From Siphonodentalium dalli (lineage: Eukaryota; Mollusca; Scaphopoda; Gadilida; Siphonodentaliidae), in NCBI GenBank assembly GCA_032622095.1, contig CP136069.1, forward strand, positions 126,623,450-126,687,449: a stretch of DNA of 64,000 bases. Reading direction: 5' to 3'. Every line of letters begins with the position of its first letter. Positions within the stretch are counted from its first letter, which is position 1. The notes below the pieces were generated by a model, which was not told where the DNA came from, searched no databases, and worked only from the letters and a program-made list of their open reading frames with translations. Of the stretch, positions 2,768 to 57,625 are shown in pieces. The translations under genes and the position numbers were made by a program.

Positions 2768-3125
2768 GATAATTTTTAAAATTAAAATTAGTTTTTCCTC
2801 AAGGGAAGCCCGAAACTGAACTATATGGATTATTATCCTCGGCCTTGTGTTATCAGGAGGGTTAAAATTTATTGTCCGTTTATTAGCCTACTCCGGTCAA
2901 TCAGCGACTCCGGTCAATCAGCGCTCGGATTAGCTCACGCATGAATGCGCCCCGTGCAAATCCCGCGCTCTTAACAATTCATCTAGCCAGTTTTATTTCC
3001 GACTTTTAATAATAAGATTTGCGAGTCGCGGGGTTGGGAATGGCACCGCCATGGGAGGGATCTATAATAGTTCAGTTTCGGGCTTCCCTTGAGGAAAAAC
3101 TAATTTTAATTTTTAAAATTATCTT
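2768..3125. mobile_element. Foldback (MITE-like) element
   Basis: The first about 58 bp (from GATAATTTTTAAAATTAAAA through GGGAAGCCCGAAACTGAAC) are repeated as reverse complement at about 3067-3125. The interior (about 2824-2999) also recurs inverted at 8055-8227. A further partial direct copy of the end (CAACTGAACTATATGGATTA) lies at 3148-3167. The superfamily is not recognised and no clear target duplication is visible. Confidence 0.65.
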
Positions 3126-8054: not shown

Positions 8055-8227
8055 TAAAACTGGCTAGATGAATTGTTAAGAGCGCGGGATTTGCACGGGG
8101 CGCATTCATGCGTGAGCTAATCCGAGCGCTGATTGACCGGAGTCGCTGATTGACCGGAGTAGGCTAATAAACGGACAATAAATTTTAACCCTCCTGATAA
8201 CACAAGGCCGAGGATAATAATCCATAT
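8055..8227. repeat. Inverted copy of the 2824-2999 foldback interior
   Basis: About 170 bp are the reverse complement of 2824-2999 with almost no differences (for example GCGCTGATTGACCGGAGTCG here against CGACTCCGGTCAATCAGCGC there). It ends at CCATAT, exactly where the outer 55 bp of the left copy would begin, so this end is truncated. R2 satellite resumes immediately after. Confidence 0.85.
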
Positions 8228-38800: not shown

Positions 38801-41667
38801 AATGCGTGCCTTTTTTTTGGTGTGGTAAGATTGTATTTCCACATCCGTTTCGAAGCCGTTCTGATTCAACTTGACCAGACGAACAATTTTGTCTGGATAA
38901 TACTATGCTAGCCTCCCCCAAAACAGTCGGATGGACTAAAGAATAATGTCTTTATGCCATGAAGGCATGCGTTTTTGTTATCCTCTCGCAGGGTTAGTGT
39001 CAGTATGTGGGCTGTATTATTCAAGAAAATGTCAGGAACTGTGGTGCATTTATTTCACTATGTATTCATATAGCTTTATATATATATATATATATATATA
39101 ACTTTAGAATATAGTAGTTAATGTCTCATGTAGGACAATGGTGATATTACTAAGAAATCACTTGGTGTGCCCAACGTATGTTGAACTGAATGCCAGAGCT
39201 CATCAACGTAGCATTCCTCTGGATGTTCTTCGCGTTGAACATTTAACCCTTGTGTTGATGGCATTTGTACTTTCTTGAAACATACCGACCACCACCCAGC
39301 GTGAGTATGACATATCAGCCAACTATCAAATGCATCGCATTTAAGACTACACCCCAGTCTGGGTGGGGCTTACACAGTAGTAGCCAATGGTACACGCCTG
39401 GTCCAGTTGATTAAGAACGGCTTCCAAACGGATGGGAACATACAATCTTAGCATACAAGGAAAGCAAAGCCACACATGAGATCCTGTCTGAATCTAAAAC
39501 ATACCAAAATAAGGGGCGGTGCAGTCATGGTCCAATTTCATTTCCACTATCATGACACATTCCCGCAAACTAGCACCGTGTGTATTGTTATCATCTGCTT
39601 GGATCTGTTCGGTGAGACGATTGCTGGACGCCAACAAGATTGTTCTTATGATCATGTTCAAGAAGTGTGGGCATATTATGTATTATGGTCTACTGTGCCT
39701 TAGCAGAAAGGCATCCGTCAAATATCAGGCTTTCAACATTCGAAGCCATATACAGAAGTTGTCCGGGTACGTCAGTGCATTAGATGAGTATGTGAATTGA
39801 TGAACCATATATTGAGAAGAGGCTGTTTGCGAAGATCACCAGATGTACATGTTGTTATCCGCATTAGCTCACCAAAGCTGAAAATACGCAGATAGATAGG
39901 TCCTTCTGAAAGCTAGTATACGCATCGACCGAATACCTGTCTAGTTTATCGCACAATATGACGCCTATACCCCATATGTAGCATATGAATTATACCATAA
40001 GCTATACCACGAATGAAGCGCGCCAAGAAAAAGGATAAGAATTCAAATCTTTCGAAACAAACACGTGAGCTGGACACCGGCATATATATTGTTTGAAACA
40101 TTCCGATTAGTGGGACCCTTCTACAAGGAAGTGTAGAAAACTGTGTTGTTGTGAGCGAGATAGATTAATCTGACGAAGATACGGAAACTGGTCCAGATAA
40201 TGCTGAATGTGGCAAATCATAATAAGCTCAGGTACTGTTGTTTTTATTCTTGGAAGTTATAATTTGAATATTCGGCGCACCTATATAAGGTTACGACCAG
40301 TATGGGCCCTTTATAGTCAAGAATGGATTTTTAAATGTCACATCGTGATTGTGGGTTTTCATCCTTCCAAAAGGCTACGACTTATATTGGAACTAATAGA
40401 TGGCTTATAATATGTACCGTTTCGTCTATACAGATCGGTATTATGACAAAACGTTGAAATTAGTATGTGATAATATCGACTTCTTTTCAATTTCTGGCCA
40501 CCAGTTTTGCCGCCATCTTGACTGTGAGTATCAATTGCCAAACTTTAATGAATACTTAATATCAAAATTCCATATCAACATGTAATGGTGGGTAGACATC
40601 GCTAAACAATGACGCCCATCGTAAGAAAGTAAAGAAATGTAGACGTGTTTTCAAATTTCGGTCGCCATTTTGGCCGCCATCTTCGATTTGGAAGACCATT
40701 TCTTGCATGAGATATAAGGTAATTACTTCACTTCAGTATTCCAATTCAACTGTAAGCATGGTGGAGTTGTCTCGACAATAATGCCCAATAATGTGAATAT
40801 GAGGGAATTTCGGAGATTTTTCAAAATCTGTCCGCCATTGTGGGCGCCATTTTGGATTTGGGGGACTTTTATTTGGATATGGTACAAGGAAAGTTCTTCG
40901 CCTAAATGTTCCCAACTCATAATAGTAAGCAGGTGTGGAGTTGTCATGACAATAATGCTCACTGATGTTAAAATCAGTGATTTTCGGCATTTTTCTATTT
41001 CTGGTGGCCATTTTGGCCGCTATCTTGGTTTTGGGTGAATACTCATCAACTCAGGTATAAGAGGAATCCTAGCTCGAGTATCTCCTGCATATATATATAT
41101 ATATGTATGGGTGTTGTTATGATAACAGTAACATTCATTGATTCGAAACATTACATCGCTTTATTAACGTCGATTCGGCTTTGACCTATTATACCGGCAT
41201 TTGGGAAAACGTGATATCGGACAAAAATATCCCACAATGAATGTATATTATGGTCCCCATGTCTTCGCCAATGACTCTTCTATACGATAAATATATCACA
41301 TCACGCCAAGATGCCAATATTTTCCCACAGAGACAAACAAAAGGTGGTGAAATGTCAGAAAAATAGCATATTTTCACATTTCGGCGGCCATCTTGGCCGC
41401 CATATTGGATTCTGGTGTCGGATTTTTGGCTAATTTATAAGGTTTGTATATTAGCATAACGAATCGAGCGGAAAGCAAGACCGCATTTGATATCATCTTT
41501 ACTATAACGGCGATCAAAGAGACCTGGTGCATATAAATTTTTTTTCTTGTTAACAAGTGAAAAAAATTAGAGGAGACATTAAGAAAGAAAATTAGTGGGG
41601 TGAAGTTGAGTCCTGGGGGGGGGTGCAGAGGTTGACCAATATCTCCTGGACTATGAGGCTGAGTAGG

Positions 41668-43556: not shown

Positions 43557-43806
43557 TACCGTTATGTCTATTTCCAATAAGTGGGTGTTATTGTTATTAT
43601 AACTCCATACATGCATCTAGGATACCCGGGCTAGGACTCCTCTTCTGCTTGTCCCAAAAATTAAATATGGCGCACATAATTTGAAAAAATGGCGTACATT
43701 ATTTGAAAAAAATCACCGAATATCCTTCATAATCACATCAGCTGGCACTATTGTCATCACATTTCCATGCTTACAGTTGAGATGGAAATACTAAGGCGAA
43801 GTAACT
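43557..43806. repeat. Truncated foldback-arm copy, left part
   Basis: Diverged direct copy of the 37237-37640 part of the foldback arm (ATGGCGCACATAATTTGAAA; ATGCTTACAGTTGAG; GGCGAAGTAACT). It is interrupted at 43806 by the Bcl-2-bearing element and continues at 49693. Confidence 0.65.
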
Positions 43807-44026
43807 ATTGATGATATACCGCCCAGTTGGCCCCCAGATCAGGAACGATAACTCTATCCGAAGTACACGACCTATATTCTCTGCAGTACTCCTGTTGGTG
43901 GCAGTCTAGACAGTTTGACCTACATTCTCAGCAGTACCCCAGTTGGTGGCAGTCTAGACAGTTTTACCTATATTGTCCGTCCACGCATTGCATCATGGTA
44001 TATGTGTATACCGGTAGGCATGTCCA

Positions 44027-44222
44027 AAAAATTTCAAAAACTTCAAAAATTTCAAAAAACTTCAAAAACTTCAAAAATTTCACAAATTTCACAAATTTCA
44101 AAAACTTCAAAAATTTCAAAAATTTCAAAAATTTCAAAAACTTCAAAAAATTTCAAAAACTTCAAAAACTTCACAAATTTTACAAATTTCACAAATTTCA
44201 AAAAACTTCAAAAATTCAACAA
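44027..44222. repeat. TTCAAAAACTTCAAAAATT minisatellite, left flank
   Basis: Low-complexity tandem repeats of CTTCAAAAA/TTTCAAAAA, mirrored at 49378-49515 in the right flank. Translated frames across it are artefacts (KFQKLQKFQK-type). Confidence 0.9.
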
Positions 44223-44375
44223 AATTCAGGATTTAGTCAAAAATATGGCTTGTTGCCATTCATCGGAAAGCTATGGGGGTACGGTGGTGAGCGCCACCGA
44301 AAAAAGCAAGTGAGCGATGGAAAAAAAGAGAAAAATAACATGACATGTGGTACATACTACAATTTATTATATTAA

Positions 44376-44579
44376 CTATTCACTGTCACTTTCGTCCGAA
44401 TTGTCATCAATTTCGTCAGATGTGTCATTTTTTTCGTCCATGAACTTTTCTAGCAACGGTCTGTACTTTAATATTGACATTTTCACTGCATCACGATCTT
44501 CAAAACCATTCTTCATATATTTGTCCACTTTATCCACCGGCCTTTCAATAGCCTTCGAAAATTTAGGTAAATTACTCAT
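44376..44579 (-). CDS. Protein A, copy 1: small protein with acidic Ser/Asp/Glu tail
   Basis: 67 aa. It starts MSNLPKFSKAIERPVDK and ends in a run of D, S and E (about the last 17 residues, DEKNDTSDEIDDNSDE...), with SDxE-type casein-kinase-2-like sites. Its ATG overlaps the stop of protein B (ATGA, 44576-44579). A poly(A) signal AATAAA lies just after its stop (44368-44363, minus strand). No family recognised. Copy 1 differs from copy 3 by a few residues (MSIL/MSTL, DEID/DESD). Confidence 0.65.
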   Translation of the reverse strand: MSNLPKFSKAIERPVDKVDKYMKNGFEDRDAVKMSILKYRPLLEKFMDEKNDTSDEIDDNSDESDSE

Positions 44580-44794
44580 TTTAGTTCAGTGAATATGTCG
44601 TTTGGAGTTTCCTTTTTAACTTTTCCAATGTTTGTCTTCGCTCTTCCTCCTTTTATCTCTTTAACTTTTATCTTCTTAGCTCCGGGTTTCCTTATAAGTT
44701 TTCCAGGTTTCGCTTCAGTCTTGGGTAGGTCTTTCGAGTCATCGTAGGGTACATATTTATTAAGATCAAAGTCATAATAGTACGGAGTCCCCAT
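44576..44794 (-). CDS. Protein B, copy 1: lysine-rich basic protein
   Basis: 72 aa: a tyrosine-rich start (MGTPYYYDFDLNKYVPYDD), then a Lys-rich segment (KPGKLIRKPGAKKIKVKE, GGRAKTNIGKVKK). It lacks one lysine codon present in copies 2 and 3 (GGRAKK). The basic stretch could be a nuclear-localisation or DNA-binding tail. A TATA box and an E2F-like site lie 38-53 nt upstream of its ATG. No homolog recognised. Confidence 0.65.
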   Translation of the reverse strand: MGTPYYYDFDLNKYVPYDDSKDLPKTEAKPGKLIRKPGAKKIKVKEIKGGRAKTNIGKVKKETPNDIFTELK

Positions 44795-44831
44795 TCCGGC
44801 TAAAGTTCAAAGTGTACTCTGAAGTAGTAGT

Positions 44832-44847
44832 TTTTATAGGCGCCAAA
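44832..44847 (-). promoter_or_regulatory. TATA box and E2F-like site, unit 1
   Basis: On the minus strand TTTGGCGCC (E2F consensus) is directly followed by TATAAAA, 38 nt before the ATG of B1. The same arrangement is kept in units 2 and 3. Confidence 0.6.
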
Positions 44848-44924
44848 TTACCATCCAAGACGTATACCCTTATAAACTGCGGGTAAGTCATAGTAATGCG
44901 CATGTCAACGCCGCTGCCGCCGGC

Positions 44925-44970
44925 GCCGGCGGCGGCGGTAACTACATAATCCTATGGCATGCAAAGAAAT

Positions 44971-45008
<38 letters not shown>

Positions 45009-45036
45009 TTTGAAGGCGGCGGCGGCGGCGTTTGCG

Positions 45037-45066
<30 letters not shown>
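44925..45066. repeat. (GGC)n and (TA)n microsatellites, unit 1
   Basis: Runs of GGC separated by TGTTTGAA, then a TA run, lie between B1 and Bcl1. Lengths differ among the three units, showing independent slippage. Confidence 0.9.
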
Positions 45067-45068
<2 letters not shown>

Positions 45069-45075
45069 ATTGATA

Positions 45076-45657
45076 TTAATATGTTTGCCAATAATTTACA
45101 CATCCATGAATCGATCTGAAAACATTATGGTTCATTGTCAACATTTTTGACGAGTAATTGTCAATATTGAGACATTCCTGGAAGAAATTATCCCAACTGC
45201 CTTCCCGTTCGACCCATTGGTCAGTGTATAATGTCACGATAGTGTGTGCCCATTGCACAATTTCGCTGACCAATGAGAAATCGTTGTCTTTGTATGCTTT
45301 TAAACACATTTTTCCTGTGAACAGGAATGCAGCCATTATTCTCTCCCATGTGTAGGGGCCATCTTCCCGAAATATATTGTCCAACAAGTCACTAAATATA
45401 TATGGAAAATGATCCCTATCGTAACTGTCCAATTTCCCTGTCAGCTCATTTAACAGCCACATGTTATAATTTTCCAGCTGTTGAAGTATTCTTCTGGTGC
45501 AGTCACGTATTTCATCTAACTCTGATAAATAAAAGTTATTAGTGTCTGGGTAATGAAAGCCGTTTTTCAGAATGATATGCCTGACATAACTTTTCATCAA
45601 ATATTTCGTAACTGCGCCAACTTCCATACTGTTAAATTTCTTGAGCTGTGTATCCAT
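45076..45657 (-). CDS. Bcl-2-like apoptosis regulator, copy 1
   Basis: 193 aa, intact. Residues about 14-34 could form helix 1. A BH1-like motif lies at about 100-120 (YTWERIMAAFLFTGKMCLKA: W-x-R-I...F...G..C) and a BH2-like motif at about 147-160 (QWVEREGSWDNFFQ; W at the GGW position kept, first G replaced by S). Spacing between them fits the Bcl-2 fold core. A BH3-like segment is uncertain (around 48-62) and no C-terminal membrane anchor is obvious, so it may be soluble. Several DNA viruses encode Bcl-2 homologs that block apoptosis; the same role here is inference. Differences from copy 3: F8, K31, S153. Confidence 0.8.
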   Translation of the reverse strand: MDTQLKKFNSMEVGAVTKYLMKSYVRHIILKNGFHYPDTNNFYLSELDEIRDCTRRILQQLENYNMWLLNELTGKLDSYDRDHFPYIFSDLLDNIFREDGPYTWERIMAAFLFTGKMCLKAYKDNDFSLVSEIVQWAHTIVTLYTDQWVEREGSWDNFFQECLNIDNYSSKMLTMNHNVFRSIHGCVNYWQTY

Positions 45658-45809
45658 TATTATTTTTTTTCCCTCCTACGTCAGACATAAAATATCAGCA
45701 GTCCCTTTATTATGTTGAGCCAGCTAACCAATCAAAATGCATGATATTAACGTGTTCCGACACGTTTCATTTCTAATTTTAGATGCTAAATGTGCCGACA
45801 TTGTTCTTT

Positions 45810-46053
45810 GGTAAAATTGGCGCGCGCGCGGAGGGGGAGGGGGTGCGAGCGGCGGCGGCGACTGTTGTTGTTGTTGTAGTTGTTGTTGTTGTTGATACAA
45901 ATGTCAATGCAATTATGAGTGATTTCAATAGGCACACTCTATTGTATAGGTAAAAAATTGGCGCGGCGGCAGTGAGGGGGTGATGGGGCCGCACGCGCGC
46001 CAATGCGCGCGTATGCCGCTCTCACCCCCTCCGCGCGCGCGCCAATTTTACCA
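45810..46053. repeat. GC-rich palindromic junction J1
   Basis: It begins TGGTAAAATTGGCGCGCGCG and ends in the inverse CGCGCGCGCCAATTTTACCA, with GAGGGGGTG/CACCCCCTC inside and a TTG/GTT microsatellite in the middle. It is the same as J2 (47533-47785) but joins directly to A2, cutting within the AATAAA region. Confidence 0.75.
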
Positions 46054-46063
46054 ATTATATTAA

Positions 46064-46267
46064 CTATTCACTGTCACTTTCGTCCGAATTGTCATCACTT
46101 TCGTCAGATGTGTCATTTTTTTCGTCCATGAACTTTTCTAGCCATGGTCTGTACTTTAATATTGACATTTTCACTGCATCACGATCTTCAAAACCATTCT
46201 TCATATATTTGTCCACTTTATCCACCGGCCTTTCAATAGCCTACGAAAATTTAGGTAAATTACTCAT
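46064..46267 (-). pseudogene. Protein A, copy 2 (premature stop)
   Basis: Nearly identical to copies 1 and 3, but codon 9 is TAG (AAG in copy 3), leaving MSNLPKFS. The poly(A) signal seen after copies 1 and 3 is also missing, because the tandem junction joins CCA to ATTATATTAAC in place of AATTTATTATATTAAC. Confidence 0.85.
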
Positions 46268-46485
46268 TTTAGTTCAGTGAATATGTCGTTTGGAGTTTCC
46301 TTTTTAACTTTTCCAATGTTTGTCTTCTTCGCTCTTCCTCCTTTTATCTCTTTAACTTTTATCTTCTTAGCTCCGGGTTTCCTTATAAGTTTTCCAGGTT
46401 TCGCTTCAGTCTTGGGTAGGTCTTTCGAGTCATCGTAGGGTACATATTTATTAAGATCAAAGTCATAATAGTACGGAGTCCCCAT
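46264..46485 (-). CDS. Protein B, copy 2: lysine-rich basic protein
   Basis: 73 aa, identical in sequence to copy 3 over its whole length as read. Its stop overlaps the ATG of the broken A2 (ATGA). Confidence 0.65.
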   Translation of the reverse strand: MGTPYYYDFDLNKYVPYDDSKDLPKTEAKPGKLIRKPGAKKIKVKEIKGGRAKKTNIGKVKKETPNDIFTELK

Positions 46486-46522
46486 TCCGGCTAAAGTTCA
46501 AAGTGTACTCTGAAGTAGTAGT

Positions 46523-46538
46523 TTTTATAGGCGCCAAA
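46523..46538 (-). promoter_or_regulatory. TATA box and E2F-like site, unit 2
   Basis: Minus-strand TTTGGCGCC followed by TATAAAA, 38 nt before the B2 start, as in the other units. Confidence 0.6.
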
Positions 46539-46602
46539 TTACCATCCAAGACGTATACCCTTATAAACTGCGGGTAAGTCCTATTAATGCGCATGTCAAC
46601 GC

Positions 46603-46726
46603 CGCTGCCGCCGGCGCCGGCGGCGGCGGTAACTACATAATCCTATGGCATGCAAAGAAATTGGCGGCGGCGGCGGCGGCGGTGTTTGAAGGCGGCGGCC
46701 GCGTTTGCCGGCGGCGGCGGCGTTTG

Positions 46727-46790
<64 letters not shown>
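46603..46790. repeat. (GGC)n and (TA)n microsatellites, unit 2
   Basis: GGC runs with an extra GCGTTTGCCGGC segment compared with unit 1, then a long TA run of about 50 bp, between B2 and Bcl2. Confidence 0.9.
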
Positions 46791-46797
46791 ATTGATA

Positions 46798-47379
46798 TTA
46801 ATATGTTTGCCAATAATTTACACATCCATGAATCGATCTGAAAACATTATGGTTCATTGTCAACATTTTTGACGAGTAATTGTCAATATTTAGACATTCC
46901 TGGAAGAAATTATCCCAACTGCCTTCCCGTTCGACCCATTGGTCAGTGTATAATGTCACGATAGTGTGTGCCCATTGCACAATTTCGCTGACCAATGAGA
47001 AGTCGTTGTCTTTGTATGCTTTTAAACACATTTTTCCTGTGAACAGGAATGCAGCCATTATTCTCTCCCATGTGTAGGGGCCATCTTCCCGAAATATATT
47101 GTCCAACAAGTCACTAAATATATATGGAAAATGATCCCTATCGTAACTGTCCAATTTCCCTGTCAGCTCATTTAACAGCCAAATGTTATAATTTTCCAGC
47201 TGTTGAAGTATTCTTCTGGTGCAGTCACGTATTTCATCTAACTCTGATAAATAAAAGTTATTAGTGTCTGGGTAATGAAAGCCGTTTCTCAGAATGATAT
47301 GCTTGACATAACTTTTCATCAAATATTTCGTAACTGCGCCAACTTCCAGACTGTTCAATTTCTTGAGCTGTGTATCCAT
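46798..47379 (-). CDS. Bcl-2-like apoptosis regulator, copy 2
   Basis: 193 aa, intact, same BH1-like (YTWERIMAAFLFTGK) and BH2-like (WVEREGSWDNFF) motifs. Differences from copy 3 include L11, K26, I66 and S153, all conservative or mild. The frame is kept although protein A in the same unit is broken. Confidence 0.8.
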   Translation of the reverse strand: MDTQLKKLNSLEVGAVTKYLMKSYVKHIILRNGFHYPDTNNFYLSELDEIRDCTRRILQQLENYNIWLLNELTGKLDSYDRDHFPYIFSDLLDNIFREDGPYTWERIMAAFLFTGKMCLKAYKDNDFSLVSEIVQWAHTIVTLYTDQWVEREGSWDNFFQECLNIDNYSSKMLTMNHNVFRSIHGCVNYWQTY

Positions 47380-47532
47380 TATTATTTTTTTCCCCTTCTA
47401 CGTCAGACATAAAATATCAGCAGTCCCTTTATTATGTTGAGCCAGCTAACCAATCAAAATGCATGATATTAACGTGTTCCGACACGTTTCATTTCTAATT
47501 TTAGATGCTAAATGTGCCGACATTGTTCTTTG

Positions 47533-47785
47533 GTAAAATTGGCGCGCGCGCGGAGGGGGAGGGGGTGCGAGCGGCGGCGGCGGCGGCGACTGTTGTTGTT
47601 GTAGTTGTTGTTGTTGTTGATACAAATGTCAATGCAATTATGAGTGATTTCAATAGGCACACTCTATTGTATAGGTAAAAAATTGGCGCGGCGGCAGTGA
47701 GGGGGTGATGGGGCCGCACGCGCGCCAATGCGCGCGTATGCCGCTCTCACCCCCTCCGCGCGCGCGCCAATTTTACCAAAGAACA
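47533..47785. repeat. GC-rich palindromic centre J2 (hairpin-telomere-like)
   Basis: The mirror point of the element. Outer stem TGGTAAAATTGGCGCGCGCG pairs with its inverse ending at about 47778, and GAGGGGGTGCGAGCGGC pairs with the inverse of GCCGCTCTCACCCCCTC. About 155 bp in the middle (about 47576-47730) are asymmetric: GGC and GTT runs, then a second small stem, GCACGCGCGC-CAAT-GCGCGCGTATGC. Nested stems with a short loop recall hairpin ends of linear DNA genomes; this is a structural analogy only. Confidence 0.7.
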
Positions 47786-47820
47786 ATGTCGGCACATTTA
47801 GCATCTAAAATTAGAAATGA

Positions 47821-47838
47821 AACGTGTCGGAACACGTT
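47821..47838. promoter_or_regulatory. Palindrome upstream of Bcl3
   Basis: AACGTGTCGGAACACGTT: 7-bp arms with a 4-bp spacer, about 95 nt before the Bcl3 start. An inverted CCAAT box (GATTGGTTA) and a TATA-like CATAATAAAG follow. The same block lies upstream of Bcl1 and Bcl2 on the minus strand. Likely promoter elements of the Bcl-2-like gene. Confidence 0.45.
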
Positions 47839-47929
47839 AATATCATGCATTTTGATTGGTTAGCTGGCTCAACATAATAAAGGGACTGCTGATATTTTAT
47901 GTCTGACGTAGAAGGGAAAACAAATAATA

Positions 47930-48511
47930 ATGGATACACAGCTCAAGAAATTGAACAGTATGGAAGTTGGCGCAGTTACGAAATATTTGATGAAAAGTTA
48001 TGTCAGGCATATCATTCTGAGAAACGGCTTTCATTACCCAGACACTAATAACTTTTATTTATCAGAGTTAGATGAAATACGTGACTGCACCAGAAGAATA
48101 CTTCAACAGCTGGAAAATTATAACATGTGGCTGTTAAATGAGCTGACAGGGAAATTGGACAGTTACGATAGGGATCATTTTCCCTATATATTTAGTGACT
48201 TGTTGGACAATATATTTCGGGAAGATGGCCCCTACACATGGGAGAGAATAATGGCTGCATTCCTGTTCACAGGAAAAATGTGTTTAAAAGCATACAAAGA
48301 CAACGACTTCTCATTGGTCAGCGAAATTGTGCAATGGGCACACACTATCGTGACATTATACACTGACCAATGGGTCGAACGGGAAGGCGGTTGGGATAAT
48401 TTCTTCCAGGAATGTCTAAATATTGACAATTACTCGTCAAAAATGTTGACAATGAACCATAATGTTTTCAGATCGATTCATGGATGTGTAAATTATTGGC
48501 AAACATATTAA
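47930..48511 (+). CDS. Bcl-2-like apoptosis regulator, copy 3
   Basis: 193 aa, intact. BH1-like motif at about 100-120; the BH2-like motif at 147-160 keeps the canonical GGWD (WVEREGGWDNFF), unlike copies 1 and 2 (GSWD), so copy 3 may be closest to the ancestral form. Downstream are TA and GCC microsatellites and then B3 and A3 on the same strand. No AATAAA is seen directly after its stop, so transcripts may run to the signal at 49233. Alternative: a host Bcl-2 relative captured by a mobile element. The fold call is by motif, not by search. Confidence 0.82.
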   Translation: MDTQLKKLNSMEVGAVTKYLMKSYVRHIILRNGFHYPDTNNFYLSELDEIRDCTRRILQQLENYNMWLLNELTGKLDSYDRDHFPYIFSDLLDNIFREDGPYTWERIMAAFLFTGKMCLKAYKDNDFSLVSEIVQWAHTIVTLYTDQWVEREGGWDNFFQECLNIDNYSSKMLTMNHNVFRSIHGCVNYWQTY

Positions 48512-48518
48512 TATCAAC

Positions 48519-48523
<5 letters not shown>

Positions 48524-48568
<45 letters not shown>

Positions 48569-48695
48569 CAAACGCCGCCGCCGCCGGCAAACGCGGCCGC
48601 CGCCTTCAAACACCGCCGCCGCCGCCAATTTCTTTGCATGCCATAGGATTATGTAGTTACCGCCGCCGCCGGCGCCGGCGGCAGCGGCGTTGACA
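48524..48695. repeat. (TA)n and (GCC)n microsatellites, unit 3
   Basis: A TA run of about 40 bp followed by GCC-rich runs interrupted by GGCAAACGCGG and CTTCAAACA, then CCGGCGCCGGCGG, between Bcl3 and B3. Confidence 0.9.
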
Positions 48696-48750
48696 TGCGC
48701 ATTACTAGGACTTACCCGCAGTTTATAAGGGTATACGTCTTGGATGGTAA

Positions 48751-48766
48751 TTTGGCGCCTATAAAA
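48751..48766 (+). promoter_or_regulatory. TATA box and E2F-like site, unit 3
   Basis: TTTGGCGCC (48751-48759) directly followed by TATAAAA (48760-48766), with the B3 start at 48804. An E2F site next to TATA is typical of genes switched on in S phase, which would suit a DNA virus; inference. Confidence 0.6.
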
Positions 48767-48803
48767 ACTACTACTTCAGAGTACACTTTGAACTTTAGCC
48801 GGA

Positions 48804-49025
48804 ATGGGGACTCCGTACTATTATGACTTTGATCTTAATAAATATGTACCCTACGATGACTCGAAAGACCTACCCAAGACTGAAGCGAAACCTGGAAAAC
48901 TTATAAGGAAACCCGGAGCTAAGAAGATAAAAGTTAAAGAGATAAAAGGAGGAAGAGCGAAGAAGACAAACATTGGAAAAGTTAAAAAGGAAACTCCAAA
49001 CGACATATTCACTGAACTAAAATGA
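48804..49025 (+). CDS. Protein B, copy 3: lysine-rich basic protein
   Basis: 73 aa. N-terminal PYYYDFDLNKYVPYDD, then a Lys/Arg-rich middle (KLIRKPGAKKIKVKEIKGGR). The stop TGA (49023-49025) overlaps the next start (ATGA). Only about 38 nt separate TATA from the ATG, so the leader is very short. Function unknown; a nucleic-acid-binding role is a guess from charge. Confidence 0.68.
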   Translation: MGTPYYYDFDLNKYVPYDDSKDLPKTEAKPGKLIRKPGAKKIKVKEIKGGRAKKTNIGKVKKETPNDIFTELK

Positions 49026-49225
49026 GTAATTTACCTAAATTTTCGAAGGCTATCGAAAGGCCGGTGGATAAAGTGGACAAATATATGAAGAATGGTTTTG
49101 AAGATCGTGATGCAGTGAAAATGTCAACATTAAAGTACAGACCATTGCTAGAAAAGTTCATGGACGAAAAAAATGACACATCTGACGAAAGTGATGACAA
49201 TTCGGACGAAAGTGACAGTGAATAG
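49022..49225 (+). CDS. Protein A, copy 3: small protein with acidic tail
   Basis: 67 aa, ending DESDDNSDESDSE. It starts inside the stop codon of B3, so it is probably translated by termination-reinitiation or leaky scanning from the same transcript. AATAAA follows 8 nt after its stop. Confidence 0.65.
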   Translation: MSNLPKFSKAIERPVDKVDKYMKNGFEDRDAVKMSTLKYRPLLEKFMDEKNDTSDESDDNSDESDSE

Positions 49226-49232
49226 TTAATAT

Positions 49233-49238
49233 AATAAA
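49233..49238 (+). terminator. Poly(A) signal of unit 3
   Basis: AATAAA shortly after the A3 stop, followed by a GT-rich stretch (TTGTAGTATGTACC). Mirrored after A1 at 44363-44368; absent after A2. Confidence 0.6.
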
Positions 49239-49377
49239 TTGTAGTATGTACCACATGTCATGTTATTTTTCTCTTTTTTCCAACGCTCACTTGCTTTTTT
49301 CGGTGGCGCTCACCACCGTACCCCCATAGCTTTCCGATGAATGGCAACAAGCCATATTTTTGACTAAATCCTGAATT

Positions 49378-49515
49378 TTGTTTAATTTTTTAAGTTTTTG
49401 GAAATTTGTGAAGTTTTTGAAATTTGTGAAATTTTTGAAGTTTTTGAAATTTTAGAAATTTTAGAAATTTTTGAACTTTTTGAAGTTTTTGAAATTTTGA
49501 AGTTTTTGAAATTTT
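49378..49515. repeat. TTTTTGAAATTT minisatellite, right flank
   Basis: Mirror image of 44027-44222, somewhat shorter. Confidence 0.88.
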
Positions 49516-49547
49516 GTGGACATGCCCAACTGGTATACACATAGACC

Positions 49548-49772
49548 ATGATGCAATGCGTGGACGGACAATATAGGTCAAACTGTCTAGACTGCCACCA
49601 ACAGGAGTACTGCAGAGAATATAGGTCGTGTACTTCGGATAGAGTTATCGTTCCTGATCTTGTGGCCAACTGGGCGGTATATCATCAAACTATAACTTAC
49701 CGGTACTACTTTCCTGCCATGAAACAGCCTCCCTTGTTCAGGATGGTGTCTAAAATGGGGACCGAAATTTGA
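49548..49772 (+). CDS. Cys-rich open frame near the element's right end (uncertain)
   Basis: The frame starts MMQCVDGQYRSNCLDC and has C-x9-C-x2-C-x5-C-x6-C, then VIVPDLVANWAVYHQ. In the left flank the mirrored copy (about 43815-44000, minus) repeats the NCLDCHQ..YC segment twice but has internal stops, so at least that copy is dead. It runs past the element border at 49692 into foldback sequence, so its C-terminus is accidental. No family recognised. Confidence 0.3.
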   Translation: MMQCVDGQYRSNCLDCHQQEYCREYRSCTSDRVIVPDLVANWAVYHQTITYRYYFPAMKQPPLFRMVSKMGTEI

Positions 49773-49942: not shown

Positions 49943-51568
49943 TCGCCAAAACAAGAGAGCAGTACTCTGACCTTTAGAAGAGAATACGACCTTAAAAACC
50001 GTAAAAGCGGAACAGGCGTGTCAGTTAACATAAAACTAGCCAGAGACATCTACTATTTTGTTAATTTCCTCCACGGAGGACCTCTCGATGACATTCGTGA
50101 CGCGATGGTACTGCCTAAGTCACGTACTGAATCGACGTCACAAGTAGACACCAACAGGGACAACGCCCTTGTTTGCCCGTGTAGTAAAGTTTGCGTGCAG
50201 GGCCAGCTGTGCAACATGTTCACCGACATTACTCTAATGAAGAGTAATAATACAGTAGTCACCGAAAATTTACAGAAGAGAATAACTGGCATGGAATCTG
50301 ATATAAACTCAATCAGGAATATGCTAACCAGAATAGTGCATGCTCACAGAGAATTTGTACAAAACACCCACACCAAATCCAAAGATTCAACAAAAGAACT
50401 GATATAAGTTGCATTGATAGACGTTTTTCACAAGTGCTTGAAATCTTCGCTGCGGACTCTTCAAAGAAAATCGAGGAACTTCGTATACTTGTGCAATCTC
50501 TCCTCCCACCACTGGTCAGCTCCACCGAGGAAATCAAAAAGCTCCTCGATCACCCTCCCCCGGGATAGAAGCTCATGCAACTAGACATAACGAATCGTTT
50601 CCGAGTCCGCATGTAAATCTGCTCGGGAATGACAATTGTCTGACATCTACACCGAAGAATGTTTCGAAGTCGGATCCACCCATTCCTCAACCAAGATCCA
50701 AAACCAATGATACTTCCAGTGTGGCTGTTACTGACGCAACATCTGCACAACTGTTCTCGAATTTAAGACCGACAAAATCTGTCAAAGTACCGTTATCAAC
50801 AGGATGTGATGTCAGTTGTGATATTATTCCGACTGCATTCAGCACCGACGAAAGCCCGATCACAACGAAGTTGAAAGCCAGACCGCTCCCGCATCTGGGA
50901 ACTCTTCCTTCTTACCACCAACTCTTCACGATAACTCTGACATTAACAGCATTTATGTGGTGTTATCTCCTGATAAATCATCTGGAGCAATCCATCTCGA
51001 CATCCCTGAATCAGACACAGGAGCTGTCAACTGCACGCAAACCAATCAACAGTTGGACGGATTCATTGGTGCCTCATTAAGAAAACGAAAACGCACAAAT
51101 ATGTTCTTCTTATATGGAATATCGCTTAAAACTACAGACGATTATATCCATAGTTACCTGATCAAGAGGGGCGTATCACCCACATTTGTGAGACTCATCA
51201 AAAGTTCAATTAGTGGAACCCAATCCGCGAGAATAATTGTTGTTGCACCGGACGCAGACACTCTACACAGCGACAGTTTCCTGCCGAGAAGAGTGCGCTA
51301 TATGTTACAAACACCTAATTATTTTCCATATGCGACAGTGTTAACTAGAAGTCCCGTCGGCCATGCTGGGTTAAGCCTATTTGAACTTCAAGTGGTCAAT
51401 TTTCCCTTAGAACGTCATCCGCTGCACCAGTCTGTGACAACAAACGCGCCCTTTTCTGTATTTGTTTCAAACGATAATCTTGCATTTCCACAACTACCCC
51501 ATTTACTGCACAAAAATCAGCAGCATAAAAATACGCAGACCCCTTCCATAACTTCGGGACCCCACTAG
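49943..51568 (+). pseudogene. Non-LTR retrotransposon ORF1, broken
   Basis: Protein-like text continues over changing frames. 49943-50407 (SVNIKLARDIYYFVNFLHG; LQKRITGMESDINSIRNML, coiled-coil-like). About 50408-50560 (CIDRRFSQVLEIFAADSSKK; IEELRILVQSLLPPL) in another frame. 50957-51568 has an RRM-like segment (NMFFLYGISLKTTDDYIHSY, FVRLIKSSISGTQSARIIV), as in ORF1 proteins of many animal LINEs. Stops and frame changes show decay. ORF1 proteins bind the element RNA. The last about 80 residues (from FPYATVLTRSPVGH) are also the start of the tandem repeat unit that follows. ORF2 pieces lie at 59915 and 63177. Confidence 0.65.
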
Positions 51569-54500
51569 ACTCTTCCTGGACATCTATACATACATGATCG
51601 CCATATTTACGTAGGCTATGATTTTCTGTTCCCGCTTAGGGATATTTCCCTCAATGATAATCAACCAATCAGCAGCCAGAATTTTGTTTTATGCTGACTC
51701 GAGTTTCCCCACACAAATTCACGAAGCGTAACTCTATATAATTAGTTGCTTGTAACCTATATTTGTAAAGAAAATCGAACTTTGATCGTGTAAACCACGC
51801 CAATTTTACCAAAAAAAAGCTTTACTGTGATACAATAGAAATATAGGAGTCATTGGACATCCTATTATCTCCCAGCGGTCCTTAAAGGCACGTGAGGCCA
51901 TATAGTTCCAATCACCGTAAACAGAAAAACATTAAAACGCATACAGTTTCGTTCATATATACCATGACCATCGCGTAAACAGCATGTTATCATCAAGATT
52001 TACTATATTTTACCTAAGCAAGAGCCTGGTTGAGTTACAGAAGACAACACAGTGCTGCTGGCTAATCACACACAACTGACATAAACGCTCTTTATTCGTT
52101 CCATATCAGGAATTCACCAACACTCTTTATGTTTACCATTATAATATAAACAAACACCAGAAAAGTAACTTTTTATGCTTTTGTTTACATAACAATAGTC
52201 AAAGATATGAAAATAACATACTGTTTATACGATATTTCTTATTTGTATACGGACAAAGTCTGTCTACATTTTGTTGTTCTTTCTGTTTGTGGCGGTTTTT
52301 GACGGGTGGAAATATTTTCACAGGATACCCACCGCCAAGGCCAACCGTACCTTTAAACCCACATACCCCGTTTTAAAATGAACCATTTTTTTGGGGTAAG
52401 AAATAACACAGATAATCGCATCCTGGTAACTCTGGAAGCACAGGTTTAGTAGACACCATGCTAATGCCTCGTGTCATGCTTGTCATAGACATATATACTG
52501 CACAGTGCCGCATGTCCCATGTCCATCCACTCGCTAATGGGAATATTATGACCACAAATGTGACCACACCCAAAATTAACGGTTTTTCATCATAATTTAA
52601 TTTTAAAAATCCGACTCGCGTGCATTACACACGATAGAAAGGCATATATATAAGTTTTGCAAACAAGTTACATATATTTACCATACGCCGTAAGGAATTT
52701 ATCTCATTTTGAAAATTACAATGTTTAATTGGATTTGAAATGCACCCCCCCCCCCCCCTCAAAATTTCACCATCCGACGATGATTTGGTTCAATGATAGG
52801 CGGATGTCCCTTTAAATTTCAGTACTTTTTAGGAGTTTGAGTCGAATTCCTATTAGAGAAACTTCCATCACCTCGATCGTGCTATTTTGAACATTAAAGG
52901 TCCACCCATATGCACAAAATTGATGATTTGCAGAAAATTACGCCTTCGGAAAAAGTTGAAGTTCCGGCGACAGAGGTAATAATTGTCTCGCATAATCTGA
53001 AAATTGGTCCGTTGGGCGTAAAAATACAATAGCTCAACAAAACAAGACAGACTTTGTTTATCAGTGCTTCTAAATTCGCTGCCCTGAACGATATTTGAAA
53101 AATGTGAATTTTCTGCCTATAGGTTACAAACACCTAATTATTTTCCATAGGCGACAGTGTTAACTAGAAGTCCCGTCGGCCATGGGTTAAGCCTATTTGA
53201 ACTTCAAGTGGTCAATTTTCCCTTAGAACGTCATCCGCTGCACCAGTCTGTGACAACAAAAGCGCCCTTTTCTGTATTTTTTTCAAACGATAATCTTGCA
53301 TTAACACAACTACCCCATTTACTGCACAAAAATCAGCAGCATAAAAATACGCAGACCCCTTCCATAACTTCGGGACCCCACTAGACTCTTCCTGGACATC
53401 AAAACATACATGGTCGCCATATATACGTAGGCTATGATTTTCTGTTCCCGCTTAGGGATATTTCCCTCAATGATAATCAACCAATCAGCAGCCAGATTTT
53501 TTTTTTATGCTGACTCGAGTTTCCCCACACAAATTCAAGAAGCGTAACTCTATATAATTAGTTGCTTGTAACCTATATTTGTAACGAAAATCGAACTTTG
53601 ATCGTGTAAACCACGCCAATTTAAAAAAAAAAGAAGCTTTACTGTGATACAATAGAAATATAGGAGTCATTGCACATCCTATTATCTCCCAGCGGTCCTT
53701 AAACCCACATACCCCGTTTTAAAATGAACCAATTTTTTGGGGTAAGAAATAACACCGATAATCGCATCCTGGTAACTCTGGAAGCACAGTTTAGTAGACA
53801 CGATGCTAATGTCTCGTGTCATGCTTGTCATAGACATATATACTGCACAGTGCCGCATGTCCCATGTCCATCCACTCGCTAATGGGAATATTATGACCAC
53901 AAATGTGACCACACCCAAAATTCACGGTTTTTCATCATAATTTAATTTAAAAAATCCGACTCGCGTGCATAACGCACACGATAGAATGGCATATATGTAA
54001 GTTTTGAAAACAAGTTACATATATTTACCATACGCCGAAAGGAATTTATCTCATTTTGAAAATTACAATGTTTAATTGGATTTGAAATGCACCCCCCCCC
54101 TTGAAATGCACCCCCCCTTTCACCATCCGACGATGATTTGGTTCAATGATAGGCGGATGTCCCTTTAAATTTCAGTACTTTTTAGGAGTTTGAGTCGAAT
54201 TCCTATTAGAGAAACTTCCATCACCTCGATCGTGCTATTTTGAACATTAAAGGTCCACCCATATGCACAAAATTGATGATTTGCAGAAAATTACGCCTTC
54301 GGAAAAAGTTGAAGTTCCGGCGACAGAGGTAATAATTGTCTCGCATAATCTGAAAATTGGTCCGTTGGGCGTAAAAATACAATAGCTCAACAAAACAAGA
54401 CAGACTTTGTTTATCAGTGCTTCTAAATTCGCTGCCCTGAACGATATTTGAAAAATGTGAATTTTCTGCCTATAGGTTACAAACACCTAATTATTTTCCA

Positions 54501-57500
54501 TAGGCGACAGTGTTAACTAGAAGTCCCGTCGGCCATGGGTTAAGCCTATTTGAACTTCAAGTGGTCAATTTTCCCTTAGAACGTCATCCGCTGCACCAGT
54601 CTGTGACAACAAAAGCGCCCTTTTCGGTATTTTTTTCAAACGATAATCTTGCATTAACACAACTACCCCATTTACTGCACAAAAATCAGCAGCATAAAAA
54701 TACGCAGACCCCTTCCATAACTTCGGGACCCCACTAGACTCTTCCTGGACATCAAAACATACATGGTCGCCATATATACGTAGGCTATGATTTTCTGTTC
54801 CCGCTTAGGGATATTTCCCTCAATGATAATCAACCAATCAGCAGCCAGATTTTTTTTTTATGCTGACTCGAGTTTCCCCACACAAATTCAAGAAGCGTAA
54901 CTCTATATAATTAGTTGCTTGTAACCTATATTTGTAACGAAAATCGAACTTTGATCGTGTAAACCACGCCAATTTAAAAAAAAAAGAAGCTTTACTGTGA
55001 TACAATAGAAATATAGGAGTCATTGCACATCCTATTATCTCCCAGCGGTCCTTAAACCCACATACCCCGTTTTAAAATGAACCAATTTTTTGGGGTAAGA
55101 AATAACACCGATAATCGCATCCTGGTAACTCTGGAAGCACAGTTTAGTAGACACGATGCTAATGTCTCGTGTCATGCTTGTCATAGACATATATACTGCA
55201 CAGTGCCGCATGTCCCATGTCCATCCACTCGCTAATGGGAATATTATGACCACAAATGTGACCACACCCAAAATTCACGGTTTTTCATCATAATTTAATT
55301 TAAAAAATCCGACTCGCGTGCATAACGCACACGATAGAATGGCATATATGTAAGTTTTGAAAACAAGTTACATATATTTACCATACGCCGAAAGGAATTT
55401 ATCTCATTTTGAAAATTACAATGTTTAATTGGATTTGAAATGCACCCCCCCCCCCCCCCTCAAAATTTCACCATCCGACGATGATTTGGTTCAATGATAG
55501 GCGGATGTCCCTTTAAATTTCAGTACTTTTTAGGAGTTTGAGTCGAATTCCTATTAGAGAAACTTCCATCACCTCGATCGTGCTATTTTGAACATTAAAG
55601 GTCCACCCATATGCACAAAATTGATGATTTGCAGAAAATTACGCCTTCGGAAAAAGTTGAAGTTCCGGCGACAGAGGTAATAATTGTCTCGCATAATCTG
55701 AAAATTGGTCCGTTGGGCGTAAAAATACAATAGCTCAACAAAACAAGACAGACTTTGTTTATCAGTGCTTCTAAATTCGCTGCCCTGAACGATATTTGAA
55801 AAATGTGAATTTTCTGCCTATAGGTTACAAACACCTAATTATTTTCCATAGGCGACAGTGTTAACTAGAAGTCCCGTCGGCCATGGGTTAAGCCTATTTG
55901 AACTTCAAGTGGTCAATTTTCCCATAGAACGTCATCCGCTGCACCAGTCTGTGACAACAAAAGCGCCCTTTTCGGTATTTTTTTCAAACGATAATCTTGC
56001 ATTAACACAACTACCCCATTTACTGCACAAAAATCAGCAGCATAAAAATACGCAGACCCCTTCCATAACTTCGGGACCCCACTAGACTCTTCCTGGACAT
56101 CAAAACATACATGGTCGCCATATATACGTAGGCTATGATTTTCTGTTCCCGCTTAGGGATATTTCCCTCAATGATAATCAACCAATCAGCAGCCAGATTT
56201 TTTTTTTATGCTGACTCGAGTTTCCCCACACAAATTCAAGAAGCGTAACTCTATATAATTAGTTGCTTGTAACCTATATTTGTAACGAAAATCGAACTTT
56301 GATCGTGTAAACCACGCCAATTTAAAAAAAAAAGAAGCTTTACTGTGATACAATAGAAATATAGGAGTCATTGCACATCCTATTATCTCCCAGCGGTCCT
56401 TAAACCCACATACCCCGTTTTAAAATGAACCAATTTTTTGGGGTAAGAAATAACACCGATAATCGCATCCTGGTAACTCTGGAAGCACAGTTTAGTAGAC
56501 ACGATGCTAATGTCTCGTGTCATGCTTGTCATAGACATATATACTGCACAGTGCCGCATGTCCCATGTCCATCCACTCGCTAATGGGAATATTATGACCA
56601 CAAATGTGACCACACCCAAAATTCACGGTTTTTCATCATAATTTAATTTAAAAAATCCGACTCGCGTGCATAACGCACACGATAGAATGGCATATATGTA
56701 AGTTTTGAAAACAAGTTACATATATTTACCATACGCCGAAAGGAATTTATCTCATTTTGAAAATTACAATGTTTAATTGGATTTGAAATGCACCCCCCCC
56801 CCCCTAAAAATTCACCATCCGACGATGATTTGGTTCAATGATAGGCGGATGGATGTCCCTTTAAATTTCAGTACCTTTTAGGAGTTTGAGTCGAATTCCT
56901 ATTAGAGAAACTTCCATCACCTCGATCGTGCTATTTTGAACATTAAAGGTCCACCCATATGCACAAAATTGATGATTTTCAGAAAATTACGCCTTCGGAA
57001 AAAAGTTGAAGTTCCGGCGACAGAGGTAATAATTGTCTCGCATAATCTGAAAATTGGTCGGTTGGGCGTAAAAATACAATAGCTCAACAAAACAAGACAG
57101 ACTTTGTTTATCAGTGCTTCTAAATTCGCTGCCCTGAACGATATTTGAAAAATGTGAATTTTCTGCCTATAGGTTACAAACACCTAATTATTTTCCATAG
57201 GCGACAGTGTTAACTAGAAGTCCCGTCGGCCATGGGTTAAGCCTATTTGAACTTCAAGTGGTCAATTTTCCCTTAGAACGTCATCCGCTGCACCAGTCTG
57301 TGACAACAAAAGCGCCCTTTTCGGTATTTTTTTCAAACGATAATCTTGCATTAACACAACTACCCCATTTACTGCACAAAAATCAGCAGCATAAAAATAC
57401 GCAGACCCCTTCCATAACTTCGGGACCCCACTATAGACTCTTCCTGGACATCAAAACGTACATGGTCGCCATATTTACGTAGGCTATGATTTTCTGTTCC

Positions 57501-57625
57501 CGCTTAGGGATATTTCCCTCAATGATAATCAACCAATCAGCAGTCATAATTTTTTTTTATGCTGACTCGAGTTTCCCCACACAAATTCAAGAAGCGTAAC
57601 TCTATATAATTAGTTGCTTGTAACC
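51306..57625. repeat. Tandem array of about 1.35-kb units (4 plus a partial)
   Basis: Units begin at TTACAAACACCTAATTATTT: 51306, about 53124, 54477, 55825 and 57173; the last stops at about 57625 after TTGCTTGTAACC. Each unit carries the ORF1 tail (LTRSPVGHGLSLFELQ), a spacer with CAACCAATCAGCAG, and a block ending GATATTTGAAAAATGTG. Units 2-4 are almost identical, with changes mainly in a poly-C tract; unit 1 is more diverged and has a 467-bp MITE. Open frames on the minus strand recur in each unit and are shadows. Confidence 0.92.
51886..52352. mobile_element. TTAA MITE, copy 2 (with empty sites in sister units)
   Basis: 467 bp, tips AGGCACGTGAGGCC...GGCCAACCGTACCT, flanked by TTAA (51882-51885, 52353-52356). 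The sister units at about 53697, 55050 and 56399 have the uninterrupted GCGGTCCTTAAACCCAC with a single TTAA. It is the inverse of 41744-42237. Confidence 0.93.

Follow-up and report, generated by a model that had tools for sequence, protein, structure and literature searches.

A palindromic, Bcl-2-encoding element in the genome of Siphonodentalium dalli: a probable non-autonomous relative of the Maverick/Polinton elements

Introduction

A stretch of 64,000 bp from the genome of the scaphopod mollusc Siphonodentalium dalli (assembly GCA_032622095.1, contig CP136069.1, positions 126,623,450 to 126,687,449; hereafter the window) contains an element of mirror-image layout with three genes for a Bcl-2-like protein. 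What kind of element is this, and what would it gain from such a gene? The best explanation of the whole, to which we give a probability of approximately 0.8, is a non-autonomous palindromic derivative of a Maverick/Polinton (adintovirus-like) element, mobilised by helper elements, shaped by fold-back copying and equipped with an anti-apoptotic Bcl-2. An earlier reading made from the sequence alone (the original prediction) had placed a mirror-symmetric element at 43807 to 49692 of the window; this was borne out, with ends located within 2-5 bp of those positions, at 43809 and 49687.

Limits and structure of the element

The element is 5,879 bp in length (Table 1). A perfect 6-bp direct repeat, AACTAT, abuts both ends, whereas random hexamer pairs drawn from the window flanks agreed by chance at a frequency of 0.000335 (67 of 200,000 draws) and 1 kb of flank on either side showed no significant similarity (best E-value 0.12). 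Both ends, read inwards, give TGATGATATACCGCCCAGTTGG, and in inverted orientation they match at 38 of their 40 terminal bases. Two hallmarks of Maverick/Polinton elements are therefore present in the window element itself, namely terminal inverted repeats and a 6-bp target-site duplication, the latter being present also in 15 other complete elements.

The interior consists of three near-identical units (96-99% alike): a tandem pair, A and B, on the minus strand, and unit C on the plus strand. Pairwise substitution rates are approximately 0.8-1.2% over the Bcl-2 and ORF2-ORF3 stretches (ORF, open reading frame). The tandem and inverted copies and the head-to-head (inverted-dimer) architecture that had been predicted were thus recovered, and the architecture recurs in eleven palindromes elsewhere in the genome. 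The centre, formed by units B and C, is GC-rich as predicted; as a palindrome it is imperfect, the two units being arranged around an asymmetric spacer of approximately 190 nt. The 193-amino acid (aa) Bcl-2 frame is open and intronless in all three units and ORF2 (72-73 aa) is found in each, the unit A copy being one codon shorter than those of units B and C. Only units A and C have an open ORF3 (67 aa), that of unit B being stopped at codon 9; an AATAAA lies downstream of it in units A and C and is missing in unit B. The expectation of three copies of a Bcl-2 gene accompanied by two small genes consequently holds for Bcl-2 and ORF2, but not for the broken ORF3 of unit B. Neither ORF2 nor ORF3 gave a significant match in searches of Pfam and PDB. 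The ORFs of the window copy encode no retrovirus-type integrase and no protein-primed PolB, and no long replicase-like ORF is among them.

Hairpins of approximately 120-280 nt, rich in GC, fold both in the middle of the palindrome and in the region that separates unit A from unit B. Such structures would be expected if the element were an integrated dimer of a hairpin-ended single-stranded DNA virus of the parvovirus or bidnavirus type, with the GC-rich palindromes as its telomeres. Telomeres of the parvovirus type were nevertheless rejected, since the hairpins are internal whereas the insertion ends carry a fixed motif and the target-site duplication; relatives of the element, moreover, carry an integrase and PolB-like pieces, and we regard this origin as highly improbable.

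The heptamer TTGGCGC, which we take to be an E2F-like site, occurs 14 times in the element as against 6 times in the other 58 kb of the window; eight of the 14 lie in the two GC-rich blocks, three upstream of ORF2 and three inside the Bcl-2 frames. E2F-type control was considered as a signature of the whole family and rejected because the sites are few elsewhere, the other eleven palindromes having only four apiece and the 9,021-bp palindrome L047 described below two.

The palindrome is known here from the assembly alone, and perfect palindromes can arise in libraries. An assembly artefact is unlikely because the arms differ by approximately 1% in unique stretches, because the symmetry ends at the repeat ends with the target-site duplication there, and because the same design recurs at other places with different duplications, sixteen distinct ones being found in all. 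An artefact, or equally the duplication of a host gene, is scarcely credible as an account of the locus.

The Bcl-2-like protein

The unit C protein matches the Pfam Bcl-2 family (PF00452) with an E-value of 1.5e-15 and a score of 58 bits against a curated cut-off of 31.4, which upholds the predicted Bcl-2-like identity. Among solved sequences the best-scoring match is Bcl-xL (5.1e-10), with Bax also at 4.5e-8. Stretches that we take to be BH1- and BH2-like are present. Structure prediction was less telling: the single-sequence AlphaFold2 model is poor (predicted local distance difference test, pLDDT, 45.5 only), yet the 50 PDB matches listed by Foldseek for this low-confidence model all belong to the Bcl-2 family (best E-value 0.003). 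The top viral fold match in BFVD, obtained with the same low-confidence model, is Bcl2 of Branchiostoma lancelet adintovirus (0.018). Searches for the Bcl-2 protein yielded no relatives in IMG/VR, in phages or in the protein database, where nine candidates were considered.

A C-terminal hydrophobic anchor was not found, the maximum 19-residue Kyte-Doolittle mean being 0.93, at residue 127. This would suit a protein that is not a survival factor but pro-death, or that acts outside apoptosis, for instance in autophagy. Such a role is improbable, given that the best-scoring solved sequences are Bcl-xL, although Bax also matches, and that viral Bcl-2 proteins without an obvious anchor are known, E1B 19K among them (PMC5691641).

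Copies in the genome

The assembly totals 2.227 Gb, and its nine contigs measure 190-301 Mb each. With the unit C protein as query, 152 matches were obtained, of which 150 were listed, so that the counts below are lower bounds. Among the matches listed, 89 copies span residues 1-193 and 80 of these are without a stop; near-identical copies lie on all nine contigs. Forty-six of the 89 are paired head-to-head, with the start codons of 20 of the 23 pairs spaced 374-381 nt apart and those of the rest 340, 550 (the window pair) and 889 nt apart.

A genome scan with PF00452 (150 of 151 candidates scored) listed 128 matches, and 123 of them, fragments included, were assigned to the mobile family because the remaining five are host-like and fall outside the unit C match list. 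Over the aligned stretches these five are 23-38% identical to the element protein, the best-scoring being 25% identical over 163 residues. In four, the GGW of the BH2 position is followed by a V (GTN) codon that resembles a splice donor, beyond which the frame no longer matches the family; the fifth match is shorter and has stops at its end. The element gene continues past GGW, as Bcl-xL does. Capture of a host gene was considered and rejected, the host-like exons being distant and apparently split by introns. The element gene is intronless and present in many copies, unlike the single-copy host gene with introns that the original prediction had named as grounds for refutation. A distant Bcl-2 relative at C5:224212856-224213404 (43% identity, five stops) possibly belongs to an older element.

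Twenty-two places were examined, comprising the window, 19 fetched places (two overlapping pieces counted as one) and two more retrieved on account of the integrase. At sixteen of them there is a complete element with TGATGAT ends, each flanked by a different perfect 6-bp duplication, as found by an end search in which the TGATGAT motif and the duplication length were fixed. In a freer search, allowing duplications of 4-9 bp, the duplication was 6 bp in all six elements with correctly placed ends; spurious repeats of 4-5 bp were returned for four elements whose ends were placed inside minisatellites. The short loci of 3-4 kb outside the 22 (L001-L016 and L037-L046) contained no complete element except L003, which is the same as L019.

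Of the sixteen complete elements, L020-L030 (eleven elements of 5,350-6,718 bp) are palindromic and each carry a divergent pair of Bcl-2 genes; no complete form was seen more often than this 5.3-6.7-kb inverted dimer. In the parts that align, the arms of these palindromes are 97.7-99.9% identical, although some of the alignments contain many gap columns. A C2H2/poly-Q frame is also present in each arm of L022, the sole palindrome with its frames listed. Matches to the GC-rich centre within CAG/GCC-like arrays are of low complexity.

Two further arrangements were observed. L033 (C3:68702600-68712500) consists of tandem Bcl-2/C2H2/ORF2/ORF3/end units with a period of approximately 3.05 kb. A 118-nt end query gave 827 first-look candidates genome-wide, 40 of which were scored; several of the scored matches are paired approximately 2 kb apart outside the Bcl-2 list and are probably shorter non-autonomous derivatives.

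Integrase-bearing relatives

The original prediction had pointed to a genome-wide search for copies with the same ends and for a longer version. One of the sixteen complete elements is longer, a helper-type element of 14,406 bp (C8:11153580-11167985) with TGATGAT-type ends and the duplication CACCCG. Its integrase matches rve at 5.8e-11, over the cut-off, and chromo at 0.005, below it. Among its PolB-like pieces (PF03175, on L048 and L049) one matches DNA_pol_B_2 over the cut-off (3.6e-7), a second falls below it (1.1e-3) and a third frame is unmatched. An ATPase-like protein matches Pox_A32 at 0.0045, below the cut-off, with a P-loop-like GATKSGKT in L048. At L048:565-1077 and L049:3002-3514 the element encodes a TBP-like protein (Pfam 1e-14, PDB 3.4e-14) and a PC4-like coactivator (2.2e-11), both over their Pfam cut-offs and to our knowledge unexpected for a Maverick. 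It also encodes ORF2 and a putatively capsid-like protein of 414 aa, the structure model of which is poor. None of the nine ORFs scanned matched an NS1-type replicase, and Bcl-2 was not found at the DNA level in the two large pieces of the element.

Two other large elements are related to it. L047 (C6:118371700-118380900) is a palindrome of 9,021 bp, an inverted dimer of the TBP-like/integrase/ORF2/414-aa end, with a 6-bp duplication. The other, on C2, is a chimera of 9,169 bp in which integrase sequence lies at either end. It also contains the 414-aa gene, frames resembling the ATPase, a C2H2 frame and a Bcl-2 that is truncated, and over 120 nt its end agrees at 90% with that of the window element. 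The genome search for the integrase gave at least 140 matches among those listed (139 of 3,232 candidates scored). By hand count, 56 of them are nearly full-length with an identity of 96% or more, and 51 of these have no stop; inspection of the matches listed by eye showed eight inverted integrase pairs, among them that of the C2 element. Other large Maverick-like sets are present in the genome, with PF03175 frames of approximately 952 and 1,312 aa in many near-identical copies (at least 149 matches; 69 of 1,596 candidates scored).

In their TGATGAT motif and 6-bp duplication, the ends of the window element share the type of the integrase-bearing elements in the same genome, and they resemble the end of the 14.4-kb element over 32-40 nt at 91-98%. 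The window copy was classed as a non-autonomous derivative because it has no integrase of its own, the gene being present in elements that share its end type. The ORF2 of unit C is 91-93% identical to the ORF2 of three integrase-bearing elements, in each of which it immediately precedes the 414-aa gene; over its first 43 nt (approximately 14 codons) the unit C ORF3 matches the start of that gene at 88-91%. ORF3 is thus a chimera beginning with the first 14 or so codons of the 414-aa gene, and the window element may be read as a Bcl-2 arm fused to a piece of an integrase-bearing element. Of the two origins first proposed, an undescribed DNA virus or a virus-derived transposon, the latter stands; the parent, however, belongs to the known Maverick/Polinton class, related to the adintoviruses.

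Alternatively, the element could be a cut-and-paste fold-back transposon of another superfamily, unrelated to Mavericks, that captured a host Bcl-2. Other DNA transposons can have terminal repeats, minisatellites and 6-bp duplications, and the window copy has no Maverick core gene just as the 14.4-kb element has no Bcl-2 at the DNA level. Set against these points are the end type and ORF2 held in common with the integrase-bearing elements, the existence of a chimera of integrase and Bcl-2, and the distance of the host-like Bcl-2 matches, most of them splice-donor-like where the element gene reads on. This alternative is very unlikely.

A rival that deserves more weight, though still unlikely, is a packaged satellite virus, in which palindromic Bcl-2 DNA would be replicated, encapsidated in the particles of a helper Maverick and spread between cells or animals, in the manner of a satellite or defective-interfering genome. 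The termini and 6-bp duplications of the type seen in the larger elements, the dispersal of near-identical copies over all nine contigs and the resemblance of palindromic inverted dimers to defective adenovirus genomes are compatible with it. Searches of the 414-aa protein, however, identified no capsid, and scans of IMG/VR gave no relatives of ORF2, ORF3, the integrase, the 414-aa protein or the end pattern, as they had given none of the Bcl-2 protein.

Age, selection and the similarity of the ends

The 37 full-length Bcl-2 copies taken from the fetched loci contain no stops and show 14 synonymous and 25 non-synonymous codon variants. The ratio of non-synonymous to synonymous rates (dN/dS) is approximately 0.41 (pooled pairwise 0.34), uncorrected for transition bias or shared ancestry, and these substitution patterns suggest mild purifying selection on Bcl-2. 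Paired copies in 13 head-to-head loci differ at six sites in total, a mean of 0.5 per 582 that omits the tandem pair of L033, as against an average of 2.3 between copies of different loci, L033 included. The copies being so alike, they are taken to reflect a recent amplification, and the family is apparently young.

Across the eleven palindromes, the paired ends of an element differ by a mean of 0.18 per 150 nt, as against 39.3 for ends of different elements. Each of the 22 arms has its partner as its closest sequence, and no value as low was obtained in 10,000 permutations. Ends so alike within, and so unlike between, elements suggest that they are re-made together in each cycle. The inner block of approximately 1.3 kb is less concerted, with 69 differences within and 92 between elements, figures inflated by length differences (one locus 612).

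Comparison with known systems

In intact vertebrate Mavericks the target-site duplication is 6 bp long and the inverted repeats measure 46-1,447 bp, with a mean of 402 (PMC8097293). The present elements resemble them in the 6-bp duplication, in terminal inverted repeats of some hundreds of bases and in the integrase and PolB-like pieces of the long relative; the window copy differs in being an inverted dimer without core genes.

Adintoviruses, now Eupolintoviridae, offer a second comparison. Most of those associated with mammals appear to encode anti-apoptotic homologues and/or candidate oncogenes, according to PMC11071296. The Branchiostoma lancelet adintovirus, the source of the top BFVD fold match (from a weak model), resembles the present family in having a Bcl-2 gene on a Maverick-type element. 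The difference is that here Bcl-2 resides on small palindromic derivatives of high copy number, not on the single long helper-type element examined.

With adenovirus E1B 19K and viral Bcl-2 proteins the element protein shares BH1/BH2 regions and the lack of an obvious membrane anchor (PMC5691641), with no close sequence relationship apparent. Planarian Burro elements, giant long terminal repeat (LTR) retrotransposons, likewise place a BCL2-like motif on a mobile element, but there it is one domain of the polyprotein of an LTR retroelement (PMC6431247).

Defective adenovirus genomes can also be palindromic, as inverted dimers of a single genome end that are generated by fold-back copying. The elements described here are inverted dimers likewise; those adenovirus genomes are defective laboratory forms, whereas the present ones are genomic insertions, and adenoviruses are not known to insert with a 6-bp duplication. 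In the literature searched, the coverage of which was partial, nothing was found on an adintovirus with Bcl-2 or on Bcl-2 in Mavericks, and absence from print is not claimed. The high-copy palindromic non-autonomous form, with Bcl-2 travelling mainly on it, is new to us.

Proposed origin and points against it

As a Maverick/Polinton derivative, the element could have arisen and spread as follows. The integrase of a helper would insert linear element DNA, generating the 6-bp duplication. Direct trinucleotide repeats like the terminal TGATGA are used in protein-primed initiation; the displaced strand of a linear, protein-primed DNA would fold back and be copied to give the palindrome, and copying from such a fold-back or panhandle would re-make both ends alike in each cycle. 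The Bcl-2 protein may block mitochondrial apoptosis and so allow cells with replicating elements to survive. The window copy would be a variant with a tandem duplication of one arm, giving three Bcl-2 genes, and a helper-type element may have supplied its ORF2 together with the beginning of the 414-aa gene.

Several observations weigh against this origin. The window element itself has neither integrase nor polymerase, and the 14.4-kb copy is only putatively functional because its PolB is split over separate frames. The 414-aa protein matched nothing in Pfam, NCBIfam or PDB (model pLDDT 30.8) and a capsid was not identified. The likeness of the window end to the 14.4-kb and 9.0-kb elements is limited to approximately 30-40 nt at 88-98%, the C2 chimera is the sole examined place with both integrase and Bcl-2, its Bcl-2 being truncated, and six of the 22 places (L031-L036) yielded no complete element. 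The dN/dS is, as stated, uncorrected. Within the inner block the partner was nearest in only 12 of 22 arms, two of them ties, and gene conversion is an alternative cause of the similarity of the ends. Finally, the end motifs of vertebrate Mavericks are AG/AGT (PMC8097293) and those here TGATGAT, a motif that was also the search pattern; we judge this difference to be a lineage trait rather than a defining feature.

Other features of the window

The features of the element are collected in Table 1. Elsewhere in the window, a unit of approximately 1.35 kb is repeated four to five times in tandem at 51298-57532, most stretches being 95-100% alike, beside coding-looking frames; it is probably a retroelement fragment. 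Other inverted repeats lie at 2823-8227, 12940-15582 and 36713-41623, with arms of 177 nt (100%), 114 nt (98%) and several of up to 400 nt (87-95%).

Table 1. Features of the palindromic element, in window coordinates.
Feature	Position	Strand	Remarks
Target-site duplication AACTAT, left copy	43803..43808	.	
Left terminal inverted repeat (TGATGATATACC... end)	43809..44330	+	Inner limit approximate
48-bp duplicate within left terminal repeat	43869-43964		
9-bp minisatellite within left terminal repeat	44027..44228	.	
Unit A ORF3, 67 aa	44376..44579	-	
Unit A ORF2, 72 aa	44576..44794	-	
Unit A Bcl-2-like gene, 193 aa, intronless	45076..45657	-	ORF; profile matches on unit C copy
GC-rich palindromic block between units A and B, with TTGGCGC sites	45817..46053	.	
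Unit B ORF3, stop at codon 9	46064..46267	-	Without downstream AATAAA
Unit B ORF2, 73 aa	46264..46485	-	
Unit B Bcl-2-like gene, 193 aa	46798..47379	-	
Palindrome centre, GC-rich	47530..47779	.	Presumed bidirectional promoter between divergent Bcl-2 genes
Unit C Bcl-2-like gene, 193 aa	47930..48511	+	
Unit C ORF2, 73 aa	48804..49025	+	TATAAAA approximately 45 nt upstream
Unit C ORF3, 67 aa	49022..49225	+	Start overlaps ORF2 stop
AATAAA after unit C ORF3	49233..49238	+	Mirror copy at 44363, - strand
Right terminal inverted repeat	49270..49687	-	Inner limit approximate
9-bp minisatellite within right terminal repeat	49384-49515		
Target-site duplication AACTAT, right copy	49688..49693	.	

Significance

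The original prediction had set the element in the context of transmissible cancers, for which no support was obtained; the nine contigs, if they are chromosomes, presumably do not fit the karyotypes of bivalves with known transmissible cancers. We put forward, tentatively, a selfish system in two parts, in which Maverick helpers would supply integrase and polymerase and palindromic Bcl-2 satellites, re-made by fold-back, would supply cell survival, Bcl-2 being kept under selection because it preserves the cells, possibly those of the germ line, that house the replication of both. Because 123 of the 128 listed Bcl-2-domain matches lie in one mobile family, and 80 of its 89 full-length copies are without a stop, the genome offers a natural case for asking whether a transposon gains from blocking the death of its host cell. 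The family bears also on how Maverick replication yields palindromic satellites and on the circulation of anti-apoptotic genes among the DNA viruses of animals.

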